Assembly: GCA_963169045.1 (NCBI GenBank)
Contig: CAUJDF010000058.1
Span: forward strand, 248,001 to 312,000
DNA: 64,000 nt
Reading direction: 5' to 3'
Origin: Myxococcota bacterium
GTDB taxonomy: Bacteria > Myxococcota_A > Bradymonadia > UBA7976 > UBA1532
In this document: in pieces, positions 34,672 through 43,275 of the stretch
Layout: each line of letters begins with the position of its first letter
How positions within the stretch are numbered: position 1 is the first letter of the stretch
The notes under the pieces: generated by a model
Told to the model about the DNA's origin: nothing
Seen by the model: only the letters and a program-made list of their open reading frames with translations
The model's database searches: none
Translations under genes and position numbers: made by a program

Positions 34672-35313
34672 CTACCCCTCGCCCTCGTTCGCCGATGAAC
34701 GCCGCCACGCCGTGATCGGCGGCGGCGGCGCGCGTTTCGCCAGGTCGGTGCGATCCTCGGTGGCCGGCCGGATCGAGTGCAACTGCCACTGATCGCCCGT
34801 GTGGCGGAGCGTCCAGAACTGCTGCATCTCGCGCTCGCCCGCCTGCCCGGCGGCGCGCACCCCGCCCGGCCCCTCGAGCAGGTCGACGCCGCGCACCTCG
34901 ACGCGCAGCTCCACCTCGACGCCGCGGGGCGCCGGCCCCTCGCCGGTCATGGTCAGCCCCAGCGTGTGCACCTTCAGGATCTTGCCGAGCCGCGCGTCGC
35001 GCACCTGCCCCTGCCGCGTCTCCTCGGCGAAGCGCGCCGTCTCGGCTGCGCAGAATTCGGCGGACGCGAACTGCGGGATGACGCCGAGATCGCGCGTGCG
35101 CGAGGCGCGCCAGACGTGCGGCGCCGCGCGCTCCACCCAGGCCCGGATCGCCAACGGCTCGAACTCCGGATAGAACGGCCCGATGCCGCGTCCGAGCAGG
35201 CGCATCGTGCGCCACTCGTGGATCTGCTCGCGGAACAGGAAGTACGCGGCGACGCCGACGATGAGCATCGCGCCGCACCAGAACAGGAACGTGCCGAAGA
35301 AGCCGTACTTCAC
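34672..35313 (-). CDS. Tim44-like domain membrane protein
   Basis: The 213-residue protein has an N-terminal membrane helix (FGTFLFWCGAMLIVGVAAYF). A Tim44/MBA1-like lipid-binding-type domain follows, ending FWTLRHTGDQWQLHSI, the typical end of this fold. Such proteins associate with the inner membrane, and their bacterial role is not established. It starts at GTG overlapping the helicase stop (GTGA), so the two genes are coupled. Confidence 0.7.
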   Translation of the reverse strand: MKYGFFGTFLFWCGAMLIVGVAAYFLFREQIHEWRTMRLLGRGIGPFYPEFEPLAIRAWVERAAPHVWRASRTRDLGVIPQFASAEFCAAETARFAEETRQGQVRDARLGKILKVHTLGLTMTGEGPAPRGVEVELRVEVRGVDLLEGPGGVRAAGQAGEREMQQFWTLRHTGDQWQLHSIRPATEDRTDLAKRAPPPPITAWRRSSANEGEG

Positions 35314-37304
35314 GGGGCCTCGGCGATGCGCCAGACCTCGAGGAGCGACGCGTCGGTGAGCGGCAGCTCGGCGAGGAAACGGCTCGGCCGCTGGAGCACG
35401 CGCATGCGGTCGCGGTCGACGGCCCATTGGGTGTGGCACAGGTACAGGTCGCGGCGCGCCCGCGTCACGGCCACGTAGAAGAGGCGCCGCTCCTCCTCCT
35501 CTTCCTCCTGCGTCTTCAGCGCGCGCCCGAGCGGGAAGCGCCCGTCGCTGAGGTGCAGCACGAAGACGACGTCCCACTCGAGGCCCTTCGCCTGGTGCAC
35601 CGTCGAGAGCAGCAGGTGCTCGTCGGGATCGGCGCCGCGCTGGATCTCCTCGGCGGAGACGTTCTCGACGAGCGCCAGCTCCTCGAGGAACGCCGTGTAG
35701 TCGTCGAACTGCGAGGCGAAGTGGCCGAGCTGGCGGATGTCCTCGACGCGCTGCTCGCCGTTCGGGTAGCTGTCGCGCAGGTGCCGCTCGTAGCCGCGAT
35801 CGAGCAGATAGTCGAACATCGACGCGGGGTTGCCGGTCATGCCCGGCTGGCCGAGCGCCAGCAGCGTTTCGCGCACCTGCCCGAAGCCCTTGCGCGCCCG
35901 CGACGAGAGCCCCGGCGGCTCGACACCCGTCTGCAGCGCCCGCCACGGATCACCGTGCACGCTCAGCGCGCTGAAGATGTTGTTGGCGTGGGCGTTGCCG
36001 ATGCCCTCCTGCAGGCGCAGCACGCGCGTCCATGCGAGGCGGTCGAGCGGGTTGAACAGGACGCGCAGGTGCGCGAGCAGATCGCGGATGTGCGCCTGCT
36101 CGAAGAACCGCAGGCCGCTGCGCACCACGAACGGGATGCCGCGCCGCTGCAGCTCGAGCTGCAGCTCCATGGCCTGGTAGTGGGCGCGGTAGAGCACCGC
36201 CATGCTCTTGAGCTCGGTGCCTTCCTCGCGCAGCTCGAGCACCCGCTGCGCCACGAAGCGCGCCTGCTGCTCGCCGTCGATCAGCGACACGCACGCCGGC
36301 CGCTCGCCCTCGTCGCGCACCGCCTCGAGCGTCTTCTCGAACTGCCGCCGGTTGAAGCGGATGCTGCGGTTCGCCACCGCCAGGATCTGCGGCGTCGAGC
36401 GGTAGTTCGTCTCGAGCCGGTGCACGACCGCGCCCGGAAAATGTTTAGGAAAATCGAGGATATTTGCCACATCGGCGCCGCGGAACGAGTAGATCGACTG
36501 GCAGTCGTCGCCCACGGCCATCACGTTCCCGTGCCGCGACGACATCAGCTTCACGAGCGCCGCCTGCAGCTTGTTCGTGTCCTGGTACTCGTCGACGAGC
36601 ACGTGCACGAACTGCTCGGCGTAGGCGGCGCGCACGTCGGGGTGGTCTTCCAGCAACAGGCGCCAGTTCACCAGCAGGTCGTCGTAATCCATCAGGTTCA
36701 TCTCGACCTTGTGCTCGAGGTACCGCGTCATGACACGGTCGAGCTGGGGGAGATGGCTGATGAACTGCGGCCAGCGCTCCTGAACCACGGAGGCCAGCGT
36801 ACGGTCGACGTTGACCGCCGTGGACAACATCGAGAGCGCCACGTCCGCTTTCGGAAACCGTCGCCCCGACGGATCACCGACGACCTCGCCGAGCGTCGCG
36901 CCCATGAGGTCGCGCGCCTCCTCGCTGTTCACGATGCCGAAGTTGTTGCCGTAGCCGAGGCGCTCGGCGTGGCGGCGCAGGATGCGGTTGCCGATGTGGT
37001 GGAACGTGCCCGCCCAGATCTTGTCGGCGGCGATCGGCACCAGCTTCGCCACGCGCTCCTTCATCTCGCGCGCGGCCTTGTTCGTGAACGTGAGCAGCAG
37101 GATGCGGTCGGGGTCGACGCCGCCGTCGATCAGGTGGGCGGTGCGGTAGACGAGCGTGCGCGTCTTGCCGGTGCCCGCGCCGGCGATGACGAGGAGCGGC
37201 CCCGGGCCGGCCTCGGCGACACGCCGCTGTTCGTCGTTGAGATCACTGAGGAACCCGGGCCGGCGGACGCCGACTCTCGGGGCCTCGAGCACGTATCGCC
37301 GCAT
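35310..37304 (-). CDS. UvrD/Rep/PcrA-type ATP-dependent DNA helicase
   Basis: The 664-residue superfamily-1A helicase shows the motif I P-loop AGAGTGKT at residues 41-48, motif Ia TFTNKAAREM and motif II VLVDEYQDTN. Also visible are motif III GDDCQSIYSFRGA, motif IV LETNYRST, motif V TVHQAKGLEWD and motif VI VAVTRARRDLYL. It unwinds DNA 3'-5' in repair and replication restart. UvrD, PcrA and Rep cannot be told apart from sequence alone. It follows the GH57-like gene after about 40 bases. Confidence 0.92.
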   Translation of the reverse strand: MRRYVLEAPRVGVRRPGFLSDLNDEQRRVAEAGPGPLLVIAGAGTGKTRTLVYRTAHLIDGGVDPDRILLLTFTNKAAREMKERVAKLVPIAADKIWAGTFHHIGNRILRRHAERLGYGNNFGIVNSEEARDLMGATLGEVVGDPSGRRFPKADVALSMLSTAVNVDRTLASVVQERWPQFISHLPQLDRVMTRYLEHKVEMNLMDYDDLLVNWRLLLEDHPDVRAAYAEQFVHVLVDEYQDTNKLQAALVKLMSSRHGNVMAVGDDCQSIYSFRGADVANILDFPKHFPGAVVHRLETNYRSTPQILAVANRSIRFNRRQFEKTLEAVRDEGERPACVSLIDGEQQARFVAQRVLELREEGTELKSMAVLYRAHYQAMELQLELQRRGIPFVVRSGLRFFEQAHIRDLLAHLRVLFNPLDRLAWTRVLRLQEGIGNAHANNIFSALSVHGDPWRALQTGVEPPGLSSRARKGFGQVRETLLALGQPGMTGNPASMFDYLLDRGYERHLRDSYPNGEQRVEDIRQLGHFASQFDDYTAFLEELALVENVSAEEIQRGADPDEHLLLSTVHQAKGLEWDVVFVLHLSDGRFPLGRALKTQEEEEEERRLFYVAVTRARRDLYLCHTQWAVDRDRMRVLQRPSRFLAELPLTDASLLEVWRIAEAP

Positions 37305-37345: not shown

Positions 37346-38740
37346 TCAGCGTCCCCAGGCCTGCGGGTCGAGCGCGGGGAAGAGCGGCCAGCGCGCCTCG
37401 CGCTCGGCGAGGAACGACTCCTCGGCGCCGTCGGCCAGGCGGTGGAACGCGGCGAGGTGGTCGCGCAGCTGCGCGACCGCGCCGTCGACGTCGTCGCCGC
37501 GGTGCAGGCGCTCGGGCCAGTCGGCGGCCTGCGCCAGCAGCAGCTCGCGGGCGGCCTGGGCGAGCCGCCGCCGGTCGGCCCCCTCGCGCGCCAGGCTGCG
37601 CAGGCGATCGGCGGCGTGGTGCAGGTGCGGGACGATCCACTCGCTGCCGGGCGTGCACAGCGCCTTCGCGTGCCCCCCGGGCGCGGTGCTCGAAGGCGCC
37701 GGCCGCGTCTCCTGCAGCAGGCGCCCGCCCGCCAGCCACGCCGCGGGCGTCGTCGCCTCGAGGCGCCGCGCGTGCAGGCGCCGGAAGAGGTCCTCGATCA
37801 GCCAGGCGGCCTCGTCGCGCCGCGCCTCGAGCTCGACCAGGAAGATCGGCGACTGCATGTGGCGTCGAACGGCCTCGCTGTGGCCCTCGAAGCGGTCGAT
37901 CAGGGTGGTCGCGAGCTCGGTGGCACGCGCGCGGGCCGCCGCGGCATCGTACAGCGCTTTGTGGGGCGTCGGCCCGGTCTGCCGCCAGGGTGTGTCCGGG
38001 AGTCGCCAGGTCGGCTCCCGCGCGGCGGCGGCCTCGATCTCGCGGGTGAGGCCCTCGTGCCGCGCGAACGCCGCCACGCCGCCGGCGACGACCGGCGCGA
38101 ACACCCCGAACACCGGCGGGCTCGCCGCGTCGAGCAGGCCGTGCGGCGCGACCGCGAACCAGCGCAGCCCGGCCTCGGCGAAGACCTCCTCGCAGCCCGG
38201 CGCGTAGCCGCACGCGGGGGGGCGGATGCCGGCAGGCGGGCGGCCGAAGTGACGCGTGTGCTCGGCGACGGCCACCTCGACCTGGCCGCGCAGCGCCGCG
38301 CGGTCTTGTAGGAGCGGCAGGAAGCCGCGCGTCGCGGTGGTCGTCGCCACCTCGACGCGGTCGAGGTCGGCGAGGCGCCGGTACTCGGCGACGACGTCCC
38401 CGCCGAGCGTCTCGAAGAGCCGGAAGTGTGCGTCGAGCAGGTCGCGCAGCTGCACCGCCGTCGCGTGCATCGGCGCGTCGTGCCGCGTGCGTTCGACCTC
38501 CGCGTCGGCCTGCAGGAGCGTCGTCTCGACCCCGACCCGGATCGCGTCGCGCTCGCGCTCGAGCATGGCCAGCGCCGTCGGCGACAGCACCACGGTGAGC
38601 GGCGAGCGCACGGCGTCGGTCTCGAGGCGCCGCAGCGCCGCCAGGAGCGGCAGGTGCACGCCGAGGGTCGCCGCGACCGCCGCGCGCGCGTCGCCCGGGG
38701 CAAACGGCAGGTGGTGCTCGACGACGAGGGCGAGGCTCAT
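37346..38740 (-). CDS. GH57 / DUF1957-like protein lacking catalytic residues
   Basis: The 464-residue protein resembles the GH57 alpha-glucan branching-enzyme-like family over its length: ATTTATRGFLPLL, GIRPPACGYAPG and a C-terminal SEWIVPHLHHA plus LLLAQAADWPERL. The usual nucleophile motif W-L-x-E-C-G-Y reads R-P-P-A-C-G-Y, so the catalytic Glu is Ala176. The acid/base segment Y-D-x-E-L-F-G-H-W is not preserved (LVELEARRDEAAWL). It is therefore a likely pseudoenzyme with a sugar-binding or scaffold role. It overlaps the DUF4912 gene by ATGA. Confidence 0.75.
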   Translation of the reverse strand: MSLALVVEHHLPFAPGDARAAVAATLGVHLPLLAALRRLETDAVRSPLTVVLSPTALAMLERERDAIRVGVETTLLQADAEVERTRHDAPMHATAVQLRDLLDAHFRLFETLGGDVVAEYRRLADLDRVEVATTTATRGFLPLLQDRAALRGQVEVAVAEHTRHFGRPPAGIRPPACGYAPGCEEVFAEAGLRWFAVAPHGLLDAASPPVFGVFAPVVAGGVAAFARHEGLTREIEAAAAREPTWRLPDTPWRQTGPTPHKALYDAAAARARATELATTLIDRFEGHSEAVRRHMQSPIFLVELEARRDEAAWLIEDLFRRLHARRLEATTPAAWLAGGRLLQETRPAPSSTAPGGHAKALCTPGSEWIVPHLHHAADRLRSLAREGADRRRLAQAARELLLAQAADWPERLHRGDDVDGAVAQLRDHLAAFHRLADGAEESFLAEREARWPLFPALDPQAWGR

Positions 38741-39408
38741 CGGAAAAGCTCCGCCGCGCTCAGGCGCCGCAGCGCCTCGGTCTCGACCCCGGCCGGCACC
38801 GGATGACGCGCGCCGGACGCGTCGACAAAGCGGACCGGGTCGCTCCCCGGTCCGGCGTGGGGCAGCTGCACCGGGTTCGAGCGCGCGACGCCTACGAAGC
38901 CGTCGCCCGCACGGAAACCGACGGCGGCGGTCAGCCGCAACCCATCGTGATCAAATGAGATTCTGCGATGGCCGAGCCAGACGCCGACCGGCGCGTCGCG
39001 GATCTCCGTCTCGTCGCCGCGGCCGATGAGATACAGGCGCAAGATGAGCTCCACGCCGTGCTCGGCCCCGCCGAGGCTGGCGCGGGCGCGGGTGAGGCCC
39101 TCGGAGGTGAGCTCCCAGTAGAGGAGCGCGGAGCGCGCGTCGATCGGGACGGCGACGATGTGGTCGTGGCCGGTGACGACGGGGAGCGCCGGCCAGTCCG
39201 CCGGCGCCGGTGTGCGCCAGGCGGCGGGCGCCTCGGGGAGCGGCGCCGGCGCCTCGGGGAGCGGCGCCGGCGCCTCGGCCGGCTTGCGGCGCGCGCGGGG
39301 CTTCGCGGGTGCGGCCGGCGCCTCGGCCGGCTTGCGGCGCGCGCGGGGCTTCGCGGGTGCGACCGGCGCCTCGGCGATCTTCTTCTCGCGCTTCTTCCGC
39401 TCGGCCAT
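38737..39408 (-). CDS. DUF4912 domain protein with Ala/Pro/Lys repeat linker
   Basis: The 223-residue protein starts MAERKKREKKIAEAP and has a basic, repetitive Pro/Ala/Arg/Lys N-terminal half coded by two 48-base and two 21-base tandem repeats. A DUF4912 domain follows (DHIVAVPIDARSALLYWELT, LRLYLIGRGDETEI, GVWLGHRRISF). DUF4912 genes often adjoin GH57 branching-enzyme genes, as here. The domain's role is unknown. It leads the operon with GH57-like, UvrD/Rep and Tim44-like genes. Confidence 0.78.
   Translation of the reverse strand: MAERKKREKKIAEAPVAPAKPRARRKPAEAPAAPAKPRARRKPAEAPAPLPEAPAPLPEAPAAWRTPAPADWPALPVVTGHDHIVAVPIDARSALLYWELTSEGLTRARASLGGAEHGVELILRLYLIGRGDETEIRDAPVGVWLGHRRISFDHDGLRLTAAVGFRAGDGFVGVARSNPVQLPHAGPGSDPVRFVDASGARHPVPAGVETEALRRLSAAELFR
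39229..39366. repeat. Tandem repeats in the DUF4912 gene (2 x 21 and 2 x 48 bases)
   Basis: Two 21-base units (39229-39249, 39250-39270; PAPLPEA in the protein) are followed by two 48-base units (39271-39318, 39319-39366) that differ at a single base. The larger unit encodes 16 residues of the type APAKPRARRKPAEAP. They may vary in number between strains. Confidence 0.85.
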
Positions 39409-39436: not shown

Positions 39437-39465
39437 GTCATAAGTCGCCCCACCGGACGTGTCAA
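39437..39465 (-). promoter_or_regulatory. Promoter of the DUF4912 operon
   Basis: A perfect TTGACA (39460-39465) is followed by 17 bases and TATGAC (39437-39442) on the minus strand, about 28 bases before the ATG. This is one of the best promoter matches in the window. Confidence 0.6.
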
Positions 39466-39545
39466 CCGCCCCCACCGATGAGGCACCGGCGCGTCCGGAT
39501 TCGCCTGCGATTCGCGGACATGAGACCCGGGTCGCCCACCGTGGG

Positions 39546-39563
39546 TGGGTAAAACTGTACCCA
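39546..39563. promoter_or_regulatory. Inverted repeat near the two-component operon promoter
   Basis: TGGGTA-AAACTG-TACCCA forms a perfect 6+6+6 palindrome. It overlaps the -35 position of a TAAAAT -10 box at 39578-39583 that lies upstream of the response-regulator gene. The position suits an operator. Confidence 0.45.
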
Positions 39564-39618
39564 CAGCACCACCCGGCTAAAATCGGTCGGCCCCGATCAC
39601 CGTACGAAGAGTGCACGA

Positions 39619-39638
39619 GGTCCACCGTTCCGTGGACC
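39619..39638 (+). promoter_or_regulatory. Leader hairpin next to the ribosome site of the response-regulator gene
   Basis: GGTCCAC (39619-39625) pairs with GTGGACC (39632-39638) around a six-base loop. It stands directly before the GGGGAGG ribosome site (39639-39645) and the GTG start at 39651, so it could affect translation. Confidence 0.5.
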
Positions 39639-39650
39639 GGGGAGGCCACC

Positions 39651-40187
39651 GTGTCCGCTTCGACCCGCGAACAGCCGCTGCTCCTCATCGTCGACGACGA
39701 GGACAGCGTGCGCAACGCGCTCAGGCGCGCCCTGCGCCGGGAGCCGTATCGGGTGCAGCTCGCCGGCTCCGCCGCCGAGGCGCTCGAGATGATGCGGGCG
39801 GAGCGCCCGGATCTGCTCGTGAGCGACCACCTGATGCCGCAGATGACCGGCATCGAGCTCATGCGGCGCGTGCGCCTGCTCTACCCGGACGTGGGCCGCA
39901 TCGTGCTCACCGGCCAGGCCGAGCTCGACACGGTGATCGCGGCGATCAACGAGGGCGAGGTGTTCCGCTTCCTGCGCAAGCCGTGGGACGACGCCGAGCT
40001 CAAGCTGGTGCTCCACCTCGCCTGGCAGTCGGTGAGCGAGGAGCGCGAGAACCGCCGGCTGCTCGAGCGCCTCAAGTCGCAGGCCGACTTCCTGCGCAAG
40101 ATGGACGCCGAGCATCCCGGCCTGTCGTCGATCCGCCGCGATGCGAGCGGCGCGATCCTGCTCGACGAGGAAGTGACGGGATTCTGA
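39651..40187 (+). CDS. Single-domain (CheY-like) response regulator
   Basis: The 178-residue protein has one receiver domain with the acidic pocket (VDDED), the phospho-acceptor Asp59 (LLVSDHLMP), a Thr in LTGQAE and Lys in KPWDD. A short helical tail follows with no DNA-binding domain. The GTG start has GGGGAGG six bases upstream. Its stop overlaps the kinase ATG by one base. It may relay phosphate among the three genes of the operon. Confidence 0.9.
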   Translation: MSASTREQPLLLIVDDEDSVRNALRRALRREPYRVQLAGSAAEALEMMRAERPDLLVSDHLMPQMTGIELMRRVRLLYPDVGRIVLTGQAELDTVIAAINEGEVFRFLRKPWDDAELKLVLHLAWQSVSEERENRRLLERLKSQADFLRKMDAEHPGLSSIRRDASGAILLDEEVTGF

Positions 40188-41824
40188 TGTCCGGCGAGTT
40201 CCTCAGGCCCCGACCGACGCCCGGCGCCCGCGACCGCTTCCCACCCATCGTGGAGACGCCCGCGGTGCTGTTCGTCGACGACGAGCCGCTCGTACGCCGC
40301 ACCGTGCAGCGCACGCTGTGGCGCGACGGCTTCGTCGTGCACCTCGCCGAGAACGCGCACGACGCGTTGGCGAAGCTCGAGTCGGGGGAGCTCGCCGTCC
40401 AGGTGGTCGTCAGCGATCTGATGATGCCCGGCATGGACGGCATCACCTTCCTGGCGCTCGTCCGCGAGCGCTGGCCGCGCCTGCAGCGCATGCTGCTCAC
40501 GGCGAGCGACGAGACGGACAAGATCCAGCGGGCGATCAACGAAGCCGGCGTCCACCGCTTCGTCCACAAGCCGTGGGAGCCGGCGATGCTGTTCGCGACC
40601 GTCCGCGACTGCGTCGAGCAGTGGGCGGTGCTCGCCGAGCGCGACCGTCTGCAGGAGATCACGAACAAGCAGAACGAGGCGCTGCTCTCGCTGACGCACG
40701 AGCTCGAGCACAAGGTCCAGCAGCGGACGGCGGACCTCGAGCGCGCGAGCCGCGACTGGCGGCGCACCTTCGACTCGATCGCCGATCCGCTGACCATCGT
40801 CGACGGCAAGCTGCGCATCAAGCGGGCCAACACCGCGGTCGCCCAGCACGCCCGCGAGGACATCCGCCGCATCGTCGGCCGCCGCTGTCACGAGGTGCTC
40901 TTCGGCCGGCCGGATCCGTGCGAAGGCTGCCCGCTCGCGCAGGGCGAGACCGGCGAGGAGAGCATCCGCCTCACCGACGCCCGCAACGGGCGTCAGTGGC
41001 GGGTGACCACGTGGCCGCTGCACGACAGCGATCCGGAGGACCGCGACGAGGGCATGTCGGTGTGCCACTACGAGGACATCACCGACCAGGTCGCGCTGCA
41101 GCAGCAGGTGATCTCGCTCGAGAAGATGGCGGCCATCGGCGAGCTCGCCGGCTGCGTCGCCCACGAGCTGAACAACCCGCTGACGGCGATCTCGAGCTTC
41201 ACGCAGATCATGCAGCGCATGGTCGGCGGCAACGAGGACCTGAAGGCGTTCACGACGGACATCCTCGAGGCGGCGCAGCGGTGCACGAAGATCGTGCAGA
41301 GCCTGCTCGACTACGCGCGCCCGAGCCCGGCCGCCGACGCCTTCATCGACGTCGATATCGGTCAGGTGCTGACCGGCTGCCTGCGCCTCGCCGAGGTGCA
41401 GCCGATGGTGCGGCGCGGCCACCTGAAGTTCGCGACCCGTGTGCCATCAGACCTGTGGCGTGTGCGGGGCAACCCCGACGCCCTCAAGTCCGTCTACCTG
41501 AACCTGATCAACAACGCGATCCAGGCGATGAGCGGCGAGGGAACGCTGTCCATCGACGCCGAGAACGTGGCCGCCGATCGGGTGGTTCGGGTGCGGGTGA
41601 GCGACACGGGGCCGGGCGTGCCCGACGCCCTGATGCACAAGATCTTCGAGCCGTTCTTCACCACCAAAGCGAAGAACGAGGGGGGGACCGGCCTCGGCCT
41701 GGCGATCGTCGCCAAGGAGATCCGGACCCACGGTGGCGACATTTCGGTCGAGAACCTCGCGGAGGGCGGGGCATGTTTCGAAGTGAACCTGCCCGCAATC
41801 GTCCCGCAACAGGAAGAGACATGA
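40187..41824 (+). CDS. Hybrid sensor histidine kinase with N-terminal receiver domain
   Basis: The 545-residue soluble kinase has a receiver domain at residues 1-150 with Asp77 (VVVSDLMMPGMDG) and a coiled-coil linker. A PAS domain with a conserved Cys pair follows (CHEVLF, PCEGCPLAQG). The HisKA box is LAGCVAHELNNPLTAIS, with an HATPase that has the N-box NLINNAIQAM and DTGPGVP, ending GTGLGLAIVAKEI. There is no membrane segment, so it senses an internal cue. It overlaps the next regulator gene by ATGA. Confidence 0.92.
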   Translation: MSGEFLRPRPTPGARDRFPPIVETPAVLFVDDEPLVRRTVQRTLWRDGFVVHLAENAHDALAKLESGELAVQVVVSDLMMPGMDGITFLALVRERWPRLQRMLLTASDETDKIQRAINEAGVHRFVHKPWEPAMLFATVRDCVEQWAVLAERDRLQEITNKQNEALLSLTHELEHKVQQRTADLERASRDWRRTFDSIADPLTIVDGKLRIKRANTAVAQHAREDIRRIVGRRCHEVLFGRPDPCEGCPLAQGETGEESIRLTDARNGRQWRVTTWPLHDSDPEDRDEGMSVCHYEDITDQVALQQQVISLEKMAAIGELAGCVAHELNNPLTAISSFTQIMQRMVGGNEDLKAFTTDILEAAQRCTKIVQSLLDYARPSPAADAFIDVDIGQVLTGCLRLAEVQPMVRRGHLKFATRVPSDLWRVRGNPDALKSVYLNLINNAIQAMSGEGTLSIDAENVAADRVVRVRVSDTGPGVPDALMHKIFEPFFTTKAKNEGGTGLGLAIVAKEIRTHGGDISVENLAEGGACFEVNLPAIVPQQEET

Positions 41825-43275
41825 ACGCAGCGACGACGAAGTCACACGTCGAGAACGTCACGTCGGTCCTCGTCGTCGACGACGAGCCCCAGATCCGGCG
41901 CGCCTGGAAGTGGATGCTCGTCTCGGACGAGTTCGAGTTCTACGAGTGCGCCAACGCGCTCGAAGCGCTCCACCTGCTGGCGAGCCAGCGCATCGACGTC
42001 CTCGTCACCGACGTCATGATGCCCGGCATCGACGGCCTCGAGCTCCTGCGGCGCGTCAAGGCGGAGCGGCCGGAGATCGAGGTCATCATCATGACCGGCG
42101 CCGGCAGCATCCCCGACGCGGTGCGCGCTACGCGCGACGGGGCCTTCGACTATCTGACGAAGCCCTTCAGCGACATCGAGGACTGCATCAAGAAGGTGCG
42201 GCAGGCGGCGCAGCTCAAGCGGCTGCGCGACGAGAACCTCCAGCTGCGCCAGCAGGTGGAGTCGAGCCCGCAGGGGCCGCTTCTCGACAGCGAGAACCCG
42301 GCGATGAAGGCCGTCAACCAGCAGATCGGCCAGATCGCTCGCGTCGGCTCGACGGTGCTGATCACCGGCCCGACCGGGTCAGGCAAGACGATGATCGCCC
42401 GCGCGATCCACGACGCCAGCCCGCGGCGCAACGGTCCGTTCGTGGTCATCGACTGCGGTCAGATCCCCAAGGACCTCATCGAGTCCGAGCTGTTCGGTCA
42501 CAAGAAGGGCGCGTTCACGCACGCCCTGACCGACAAGGCCGGCCTCTTCGAGGCGGCCAACGGCGGCACGCTCTTCCTCGACGAGATCGGGAACATGCCC
42601 ATGGACCTGCAGCAGAAGCTGTTGCGGGTGCTGCAGGACTCGATCGTGCGTCGCGTCGGTGAGACGACCAAGGAGGTCAAGGTCGACGTGCGCGTCATCG
42701 GCGCGACCAACGCCGACCTGCAGAAGGCGGTGGACAGCGGCCAGTTCCGATCGGACCTGTACTTCCGCCTCAAGGTCGTGCAGCTCCGCCTGCCCGCGCT
42801 CGCCGACCGGCGCGAGGACATCCCCAAGCTCGCGTACCACTTCCTGCGCAAGCACACCGCGCAGATGGGCAAGACGATCAAGACGATCTCGCCCCGCTGC
42901 ATGGACGTGCTGCGCAACAGCCGGTGGAGCGGCAACATCCGCGAGCTCGCGGCGGCGATCGAGCGCGCCGTCGTCTTCGAGACCGGGGAGGAGCTCACCG
43001 AGCGCCACCTGCCGCCGGAGCTGCAGCAGGGCGCCGAGTCGCCGACGGTGCTCGAGTCCTTCTCGGGGCAGGTCGACCTGACGCTGCCGTTCGCCAAGGC
43101 GCTCGAGCAGGCGGAGACCGCGTATCGCGTGGCCTATCTGACCGGCGTGATGAACAAGTACCGCAACGTCTCGGCGGCCGCGCGCCACGCCGAGGTCGAT
43201 CGCGCCAACTTCCGGCGGCTGCTCCGCCGCTACGGCATCACCGACTACCCCAAGGGGCACGTCCAGACCCGGTGA
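41821..43275 (+). CDS. NtrC-family response regulator with altered GAFTGA loop
   Basis: The 484-residue protein has a receiver domain with Asp64, an AAA+ domain with Walker A GPTGSGKT (183-190) and Walker B LFLDEI, and a C-terminal helix-turn-helix ([20 protein letters not shown]). The sigma54-contact loop reads GAFTHA (230-235) instead of GAFTGA. The invariant second Gly is lost, which in characterised proteins usually abolishes sigma54 contact. It may work with sigma70 or by oligomerisation only. It ends the two-component operon. Confidence 0.9.

Follow-up and report, generated by a model that had tools for sequence, protein, structure and literature searches.

In GH57 branching enzymes the nucleophile is a Glu and the proton donor an Asp, and a His acts as stabiliser (PMC10346327). 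Branching-enzyme-like GH57 proteins without catalytic residues are a kind already known, named in 2018 when 60 bacterial sequences lacking one or both catalytic residues were grouped (PMC6037648). Until now, non-catalytic GH57 proteins have been known mainly as sequence groups. Here we describe such a protein in its genomic setting; by the window we mean the whole 64,000-nt stretch of DNA that was analysed. The window protein shares with the 2018 group its nearness to branching enzymes and the missing catalytic residues. As the available portion of that paper defines it, the group required five recognisable CSRs, whereas in the window protein CSR-1, 2, 3 and 5 are recognisable, CSR-4 is mostly lost and further cleft residues are gone as well; the same portion describes neither the genomic context of the group nor repeated independent loss within it (PMC6037648). 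The present analysis adds that catalysis was lost repeatedly and independently at a single operon position, that dead copies remain constrained, and that a link to a helicase gene is independent of catalysis.

The GH57-like gene (37346-38740, minus strand) encodes 464 amino acids. Both domains expected of the fold, the Glyco_hydro_57 barrel (PF03065, E-value 2.6e-13) and the helical BE_C domain (PF09210, E-value 1.4e-14), score above their curated Pfam cut-offs, with BE_C (residues 372-462; 37355-37627, minus strand) the top-scoring one at 54.8 bits. The AlphaFold2 model is confident (pLDDT 88.7, pTM 0.90), and the top solved structures found with it by Foldseek are known GH57 branching enzymes with TM scores of 0.89-0.91 by query length (best folds 2b5d, 1ufa, 3p0b, 5wu7 and 3n8t; E-value 3.1e-30 to 2B5D), so that the fold landmarks noticed at first reading are indeed kept. 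Fold and domain order are the same as in Thermotoga maritima AmyC (2B5D), TK1436 (3N8T) and the enzymes of P. horikoshii (5WU7) and T. thermophilus (3P0B); compared with these enzymes the window protein lacks the catalytic residues described below, and it is ∼60 residues shorter than its active orthologs. One of the latter, from genome G001, matches T. maritima AmyC at 501.8 bits, and the GH57-like gene descends from an AmyC-type GH57 glycogen-branching enzyme. Since many frames stay open in DNA of 71% G+C, as here, openness of the reading frame means little on its own. Chance openness was ruled out by the GC content at the three codon positions (0.82/0.54/0.96), a coding pattern that resembles that of the neighbouring helicase gene, together with the confidently predicted GH57 fold. 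An assembly error as the cause of the missing catalytic site was likewise rejected, given many dispersed changes, an intact frame and coding-type GC at the third codon position.

The window protein was aligned with 20 homologues from the class whose catalytic site is intact. The earlier note had claimed that the nucleophile Glu and the acid/base segment are lost, and the alignment bears this out: Ala176 (38213-38215, minus strand) stands exactly in the nucleophile column (GIRPPACGYAPG versus GIWLAECGYFPG), and the acid/base segment DAELFGHWWFEGP (DAELFGHWW) is shrunk to ELEARRDEAAW, where Glu305 (37826-37828, minus strand) aligns with the acid/base Asp and the LFGHWWFEGP that should follow is deleted or replaced. 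The loss is wider than first noted. The first His of CSR-1 (H-x-H-L-P in catalytic GH57) is Glu8 (38717-38719, minus strand) and the His of CSR-2 (ATHG) is Arg138 (38327-38329, minus strand); the second His of the H-x-H motif is retained as His10. A cleft segment of ∼45 residues, QVWS..GYPGD.YREYYRD...TGLKYHR in the catalytic homologues, is absent, and residues 236-253 (37982-38035, minus strand) replace it with a short, partly low-confidence linker (pLDDT <50 at 241-251 and 253-258). The window protein thus has none of the features that mark an active branching enzyme, namely the nucleophile Glu, the acid/base Asp with FGHWW and the CSR-1 and CSR-2 His residues, whereas the expected site is seen in intact orthologs from the same operon, which makes the window protein a probable pseudoenzyme, as had been proposed. 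It is barely credible that the protein remains enzymatically active through a relocated catalytic acid: the acidic Glu305 does align with the acid/base Asp, but an Ala at the nucleophile position, the replaced His residues and the missing GHWW loop and GYPGD...KYHR segment would hardly permit catalysis.

The intact homologues share 114 invariant columns, of which the window protein keeps 49. The invariant W, H, E, D, Y, R, K and N residues were lost in 39 of 49 columns versus 26 of 65 for other residues (Fisher p 2.4e-5), with Trp gone in six of eight, His in five of seven, Glu in eight of nine and Tyr in six of seven. Codons for Trp, Tyr, Lys and Asn are AT-richer than those for Ala, Gly and Pro, and GC-driven drift could give part of the bias, so that the test is supportive, not conclusive. 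As far as the alignment can tell, the residues for chemistry and sugar handling have been stripped from the cleft, and core residues retained.

The GH57-like protein was searched for in 12 other genomes of the window genome's family and found in all 12. G001, G002, G003, G004 and G010 carry an ortholog with the complete set of catalytic residues (WLAEC and DAELFGHWW), in the same position between DUF4912 and UvrD-type genes. The copies in G005, G006, G007, G009, G011 and G012 are degenerate, and each genus has its own replacement of the nucleophile; the G008 copy is split over two contigs, and its pieces match the degenerate G007 copy at ∼50%. With regard to the suggested check on how widespread the A-x-G-Y variant is, that variant turned out to be private to the window genome among the genomes aligned, and most relatives lost the Glu through other residues. 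In a sample of the phylum, DAELFGHWW was found in all of the 17 best-scoring GH57 homologues that were read, and the Glu motif pattern in 16.

A tree of concatenated UvrD and rpoB places the window genome beside the active G001-G003 (support 100/100), followed outward by the dead g6, the active G010 and then the dead g5, g7 and g9. A single clade of dead copies is rejected by the AU test on the concatenation (p 0.00176), and is not rejected at 0.05 by UvrD alone (p 0.056) or rpoB alone (p 0.134). In a tree of GH57 alone the family's dead copies cluster together (86-93% bootstrap) on long branches, and we put the cluster down to these, since the gene does not reject a species-like grouping (p 0.168). 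If a regain of catalysis is impossible, rejection of the single dead clade calls for about three losses or more within the family. A different family of the class includes G041 (L071, L072) and G038 (L082, L083), genomes with one active and one dead GH57 copy each; every dead copy there has its own DUF4912 gene upstream.

The DUF4912 gene of the window (38737-39408, minus strand) overlaps the GH57-like gene by 4 bp, its stop codon lying within the start codon of the latter in an ATGA (38737-38740, minus strand). The encoded protein of 223 amino acids has an N-terminal tail rich in Ala, Pro and Lys followed by the DUF4912 domain (approximately 38767-39195), a member of PF16258 at 38.0 bits (gathering cut-off 29.4; E-value 2.2e-09) that differs in being paired with a non-catalytic GH57. 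We found no published function for DUF4912 in the literature. For the domain, AlphaFold2 (pLDDT 88.6) predicts a beta-sandwich of seven strands plus one helix, similar to fibronectin III; most of what Foldseek matched to it are fibronectin type III domains with weak TM scores of 0.4-0.6, and a carbohydrate-binding module is among the weak matches. Upstream of the DUF4912 gene lies a divergent cluster (39459-43275, plus strand) that, judged by eye, encodes a response regulator, a hybrid sensor kinase and a sigma-54-type regulator.

DUF4912 had been called a conserved partner, and the comparison agrees. Whether a pair of the class is active or dead, DUF4912 immediately precedes GH57, in most cases overlapping it by 4 bp or separated from it by a short gap (the −4 overlap of the window pair recurs in many pairs of either sort), and in the class as elsewhere in the phylum DUF4912 usually adjoins a GH57 branching enzyme. 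In G011, DUF4912 and the GH57-like part make one uninterrupted ORF of 718 codons (L041:3880-6033, plus strand), apparently a natural fusion. Because the coupling is constant in active and dead pairs and a natural fusion exists, a physical partnership is the simplest guess: the DUF4912 protein and the GH57-like protein probably bind each other, and this binding may well be the function that the dead protein has retained.

The suggestion had been a carbohydrate-sensing or scaffold protein. Of these two, the scaffold is plausible and is the one we prefer. For a sensor, the dead cleft would still have to bind alpha-glucan or an oligosaccharide and signal through the DUF4912 protein; the retained GH57 fold, the presence of GlgA and alpha-glucan phosphorylase in the window genome and the beta-sandwich predicted for DUF4912, with its weak match to a carbohydrate-binding module, are in keeping with such a role. 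Yet the conserved residues lost are preferentially those of the sugar-handling set (W, H, E, D, Y, R, K and N), which disfavours glucan sensing through the cleft, and Pfam recognises no signalling domain in either protein, so that we regard the sensor as decidedly unlikely.

On the other side of the GH57-like gene, 41 bp downstream of its stop codon, a gene of the same strand (35310-37304, minus strand) encodes a UvrD/Rep/PcrA-type SF1 helicase of 664 amino acids (PF00580, 248.6 bits). Both the UvrD-helicase and UvrD_C domains are present, as in known UvrD, PcrA and Rep helicases, while the score is below all equivalog cut-offs (482.5 bits versus 911.2 for PcrA, the others lower). The gene after the helicase (34672-35430, minus strand) encodes a protein that is probably anchored in the membrane and whose Tim44-like match is weak (E-value 0.03). 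A scan for promoters and terminators, which is uninformative for this organism, found nothing.

The coupling to a helicase gene had been described as unexpected. The adjacency is real, but it is not specific to the pseudoenzyme, being shared by the five catalytic orthologs. Of the 12 other family genomes, 11 have a same-strand helicase homologue next to GH57, the exception being G009, where none was found within the 4.7 kb read downstream of GH57. Outside the family, most genomes retain DUF4912 immediately before GH57, and no homologue of this helicase occurs in the flanks read around the pair. In a scan based on UvrD, named relatives (including Bradymonadales/Lujinxingiaceae and Myxococcota) had at most 52% identity, and none of them had GH57 or DUF4912 genes; relatives of this kind make a host in or close to the Bradymonadia probable. 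The order DUF4912-GH57-helicase is thus a trait of the family that is independent of catalysis, and since it is common to catalytically intact orthologs, it gives no pointer to the function of the pseudoenzyme. A DNA-maintenance module in which the helicase uses an exapted GH57 fold as its accessory subunit would account for the co-directional neighbour in those 11 genomes; we consider it highly improbable, as the helicase equally adjoins intact GH57 and the DUF4912-GH57 pair outside the family does without it in the flanks read.

The window GH57-like protein is 37% identical to its G001 ortholog, while the UvrD neighbour is 65% identical; for the active GH57s of G001-G003 the figures are 67% for GH57 and 64% for UvrD. 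Being less conserved than UvrD, unlike the active GH57s, the window protein is clearly under relaxed constraint, and its gene has raised GC at the first and second codon positions. Between two species of the genus g5, both with dead copies, omega is 0.53 (0.34 for the helicase), and within the genus g6 it is 0.50-0.58 for dead copies (0.25 for the helicase). When the g5 gene was simulated under neutrality, with three values of equilibrium GC, omega came out at 1.15-1.5 and stop codons arose in most settings; with such a codon bias the omega estimates are crude, and the comparison with the simulation therefore outweighs the absolute values. The dead copies in g5 and g6 are relaxed yet still under purifying selection, and a like selection presumably acts in the window's own lineage.

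The window genome (9.0 Mb) has GlgA, a GH13 GlgB (946 bits) and alpha-glucan phosphorylase, all of them elsewhere in the genome, so that branching does not depend on the GH57-like gene. A second GH57 of another type (707 amino acids; contig C94, L043:5701-7821, minus strand) has WPAEGSVSPE for WLPEC and belongs to no NCBIfam family. GlgB is present in G009 too. The genomes G005, G006, G007, G008, G011 and G012 have matches to GlgA, and neither a GH13 GlgB above the cut-off nor an intact GH57 of this type was found in them; their glucan is either unbranched or branched by another enzyme, or the gene was missed by the draft genomes. Redundancy with GlgB does not explain the losses in g5, g6 and g9, where the copies are dead without a recognised GlgB.

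A decaying relic, drifting since GlgB made it redundant and retained only because it sits in a translationally coupled operon before an important helicase gene, is a rather unlikely explanation. The strong acceleration relative to UvrD, the raised GC at the first two codon positions, a different nucleophile substitution in nearly every lineage and the presence of GlgB in the window genome are what decay would produce. Against it, omega of ∼0.5 in the dead g5 and g6 copies is far below the neutral expectation, the fold is predicted with confidence, and the frame is open throughout; besides, a place in the operon could guard the DNA against loss but not the amino-acid sequence.

Our preferred reading, which we hold with modest confidence, is that after an AmyC-type ancestor lost catalysis the protein serves as a non-enzymatic folded partner of the DUF4912 protein. 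The ancestor was an AmyC-type GH57 branching enzyme already coupled to DUF4912 and, in the window's family, encoded just upstream of the UvrD-type helicase gene. The window lineage then lost the catalytic and glucan-binding residues, probably once GH13 GlgB had made branching redundant, and the protein would have been retained as a folded scaffold or structural subunit together with the DUF4912 protein. Most likely the helicase gene is simply transcribed along with the pair, as a bystander.

Conceivably, though we think it unlikely, DUF4912-coupled branching enzymes may in general have a second, structural role with DUF4912, which would explain their survival through repeated loss of catalysis in one family and in the second-copy pair of another; in the window's family they may act with the UvrD-type helicase. 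Catalytic and non-catalytic orthologs at one operon position in one family, with independent losses, make a clean natural comparison, and the residues still conserved after catalysis is gone should reveal a second function of DUF4912-coupled branching enzymes.
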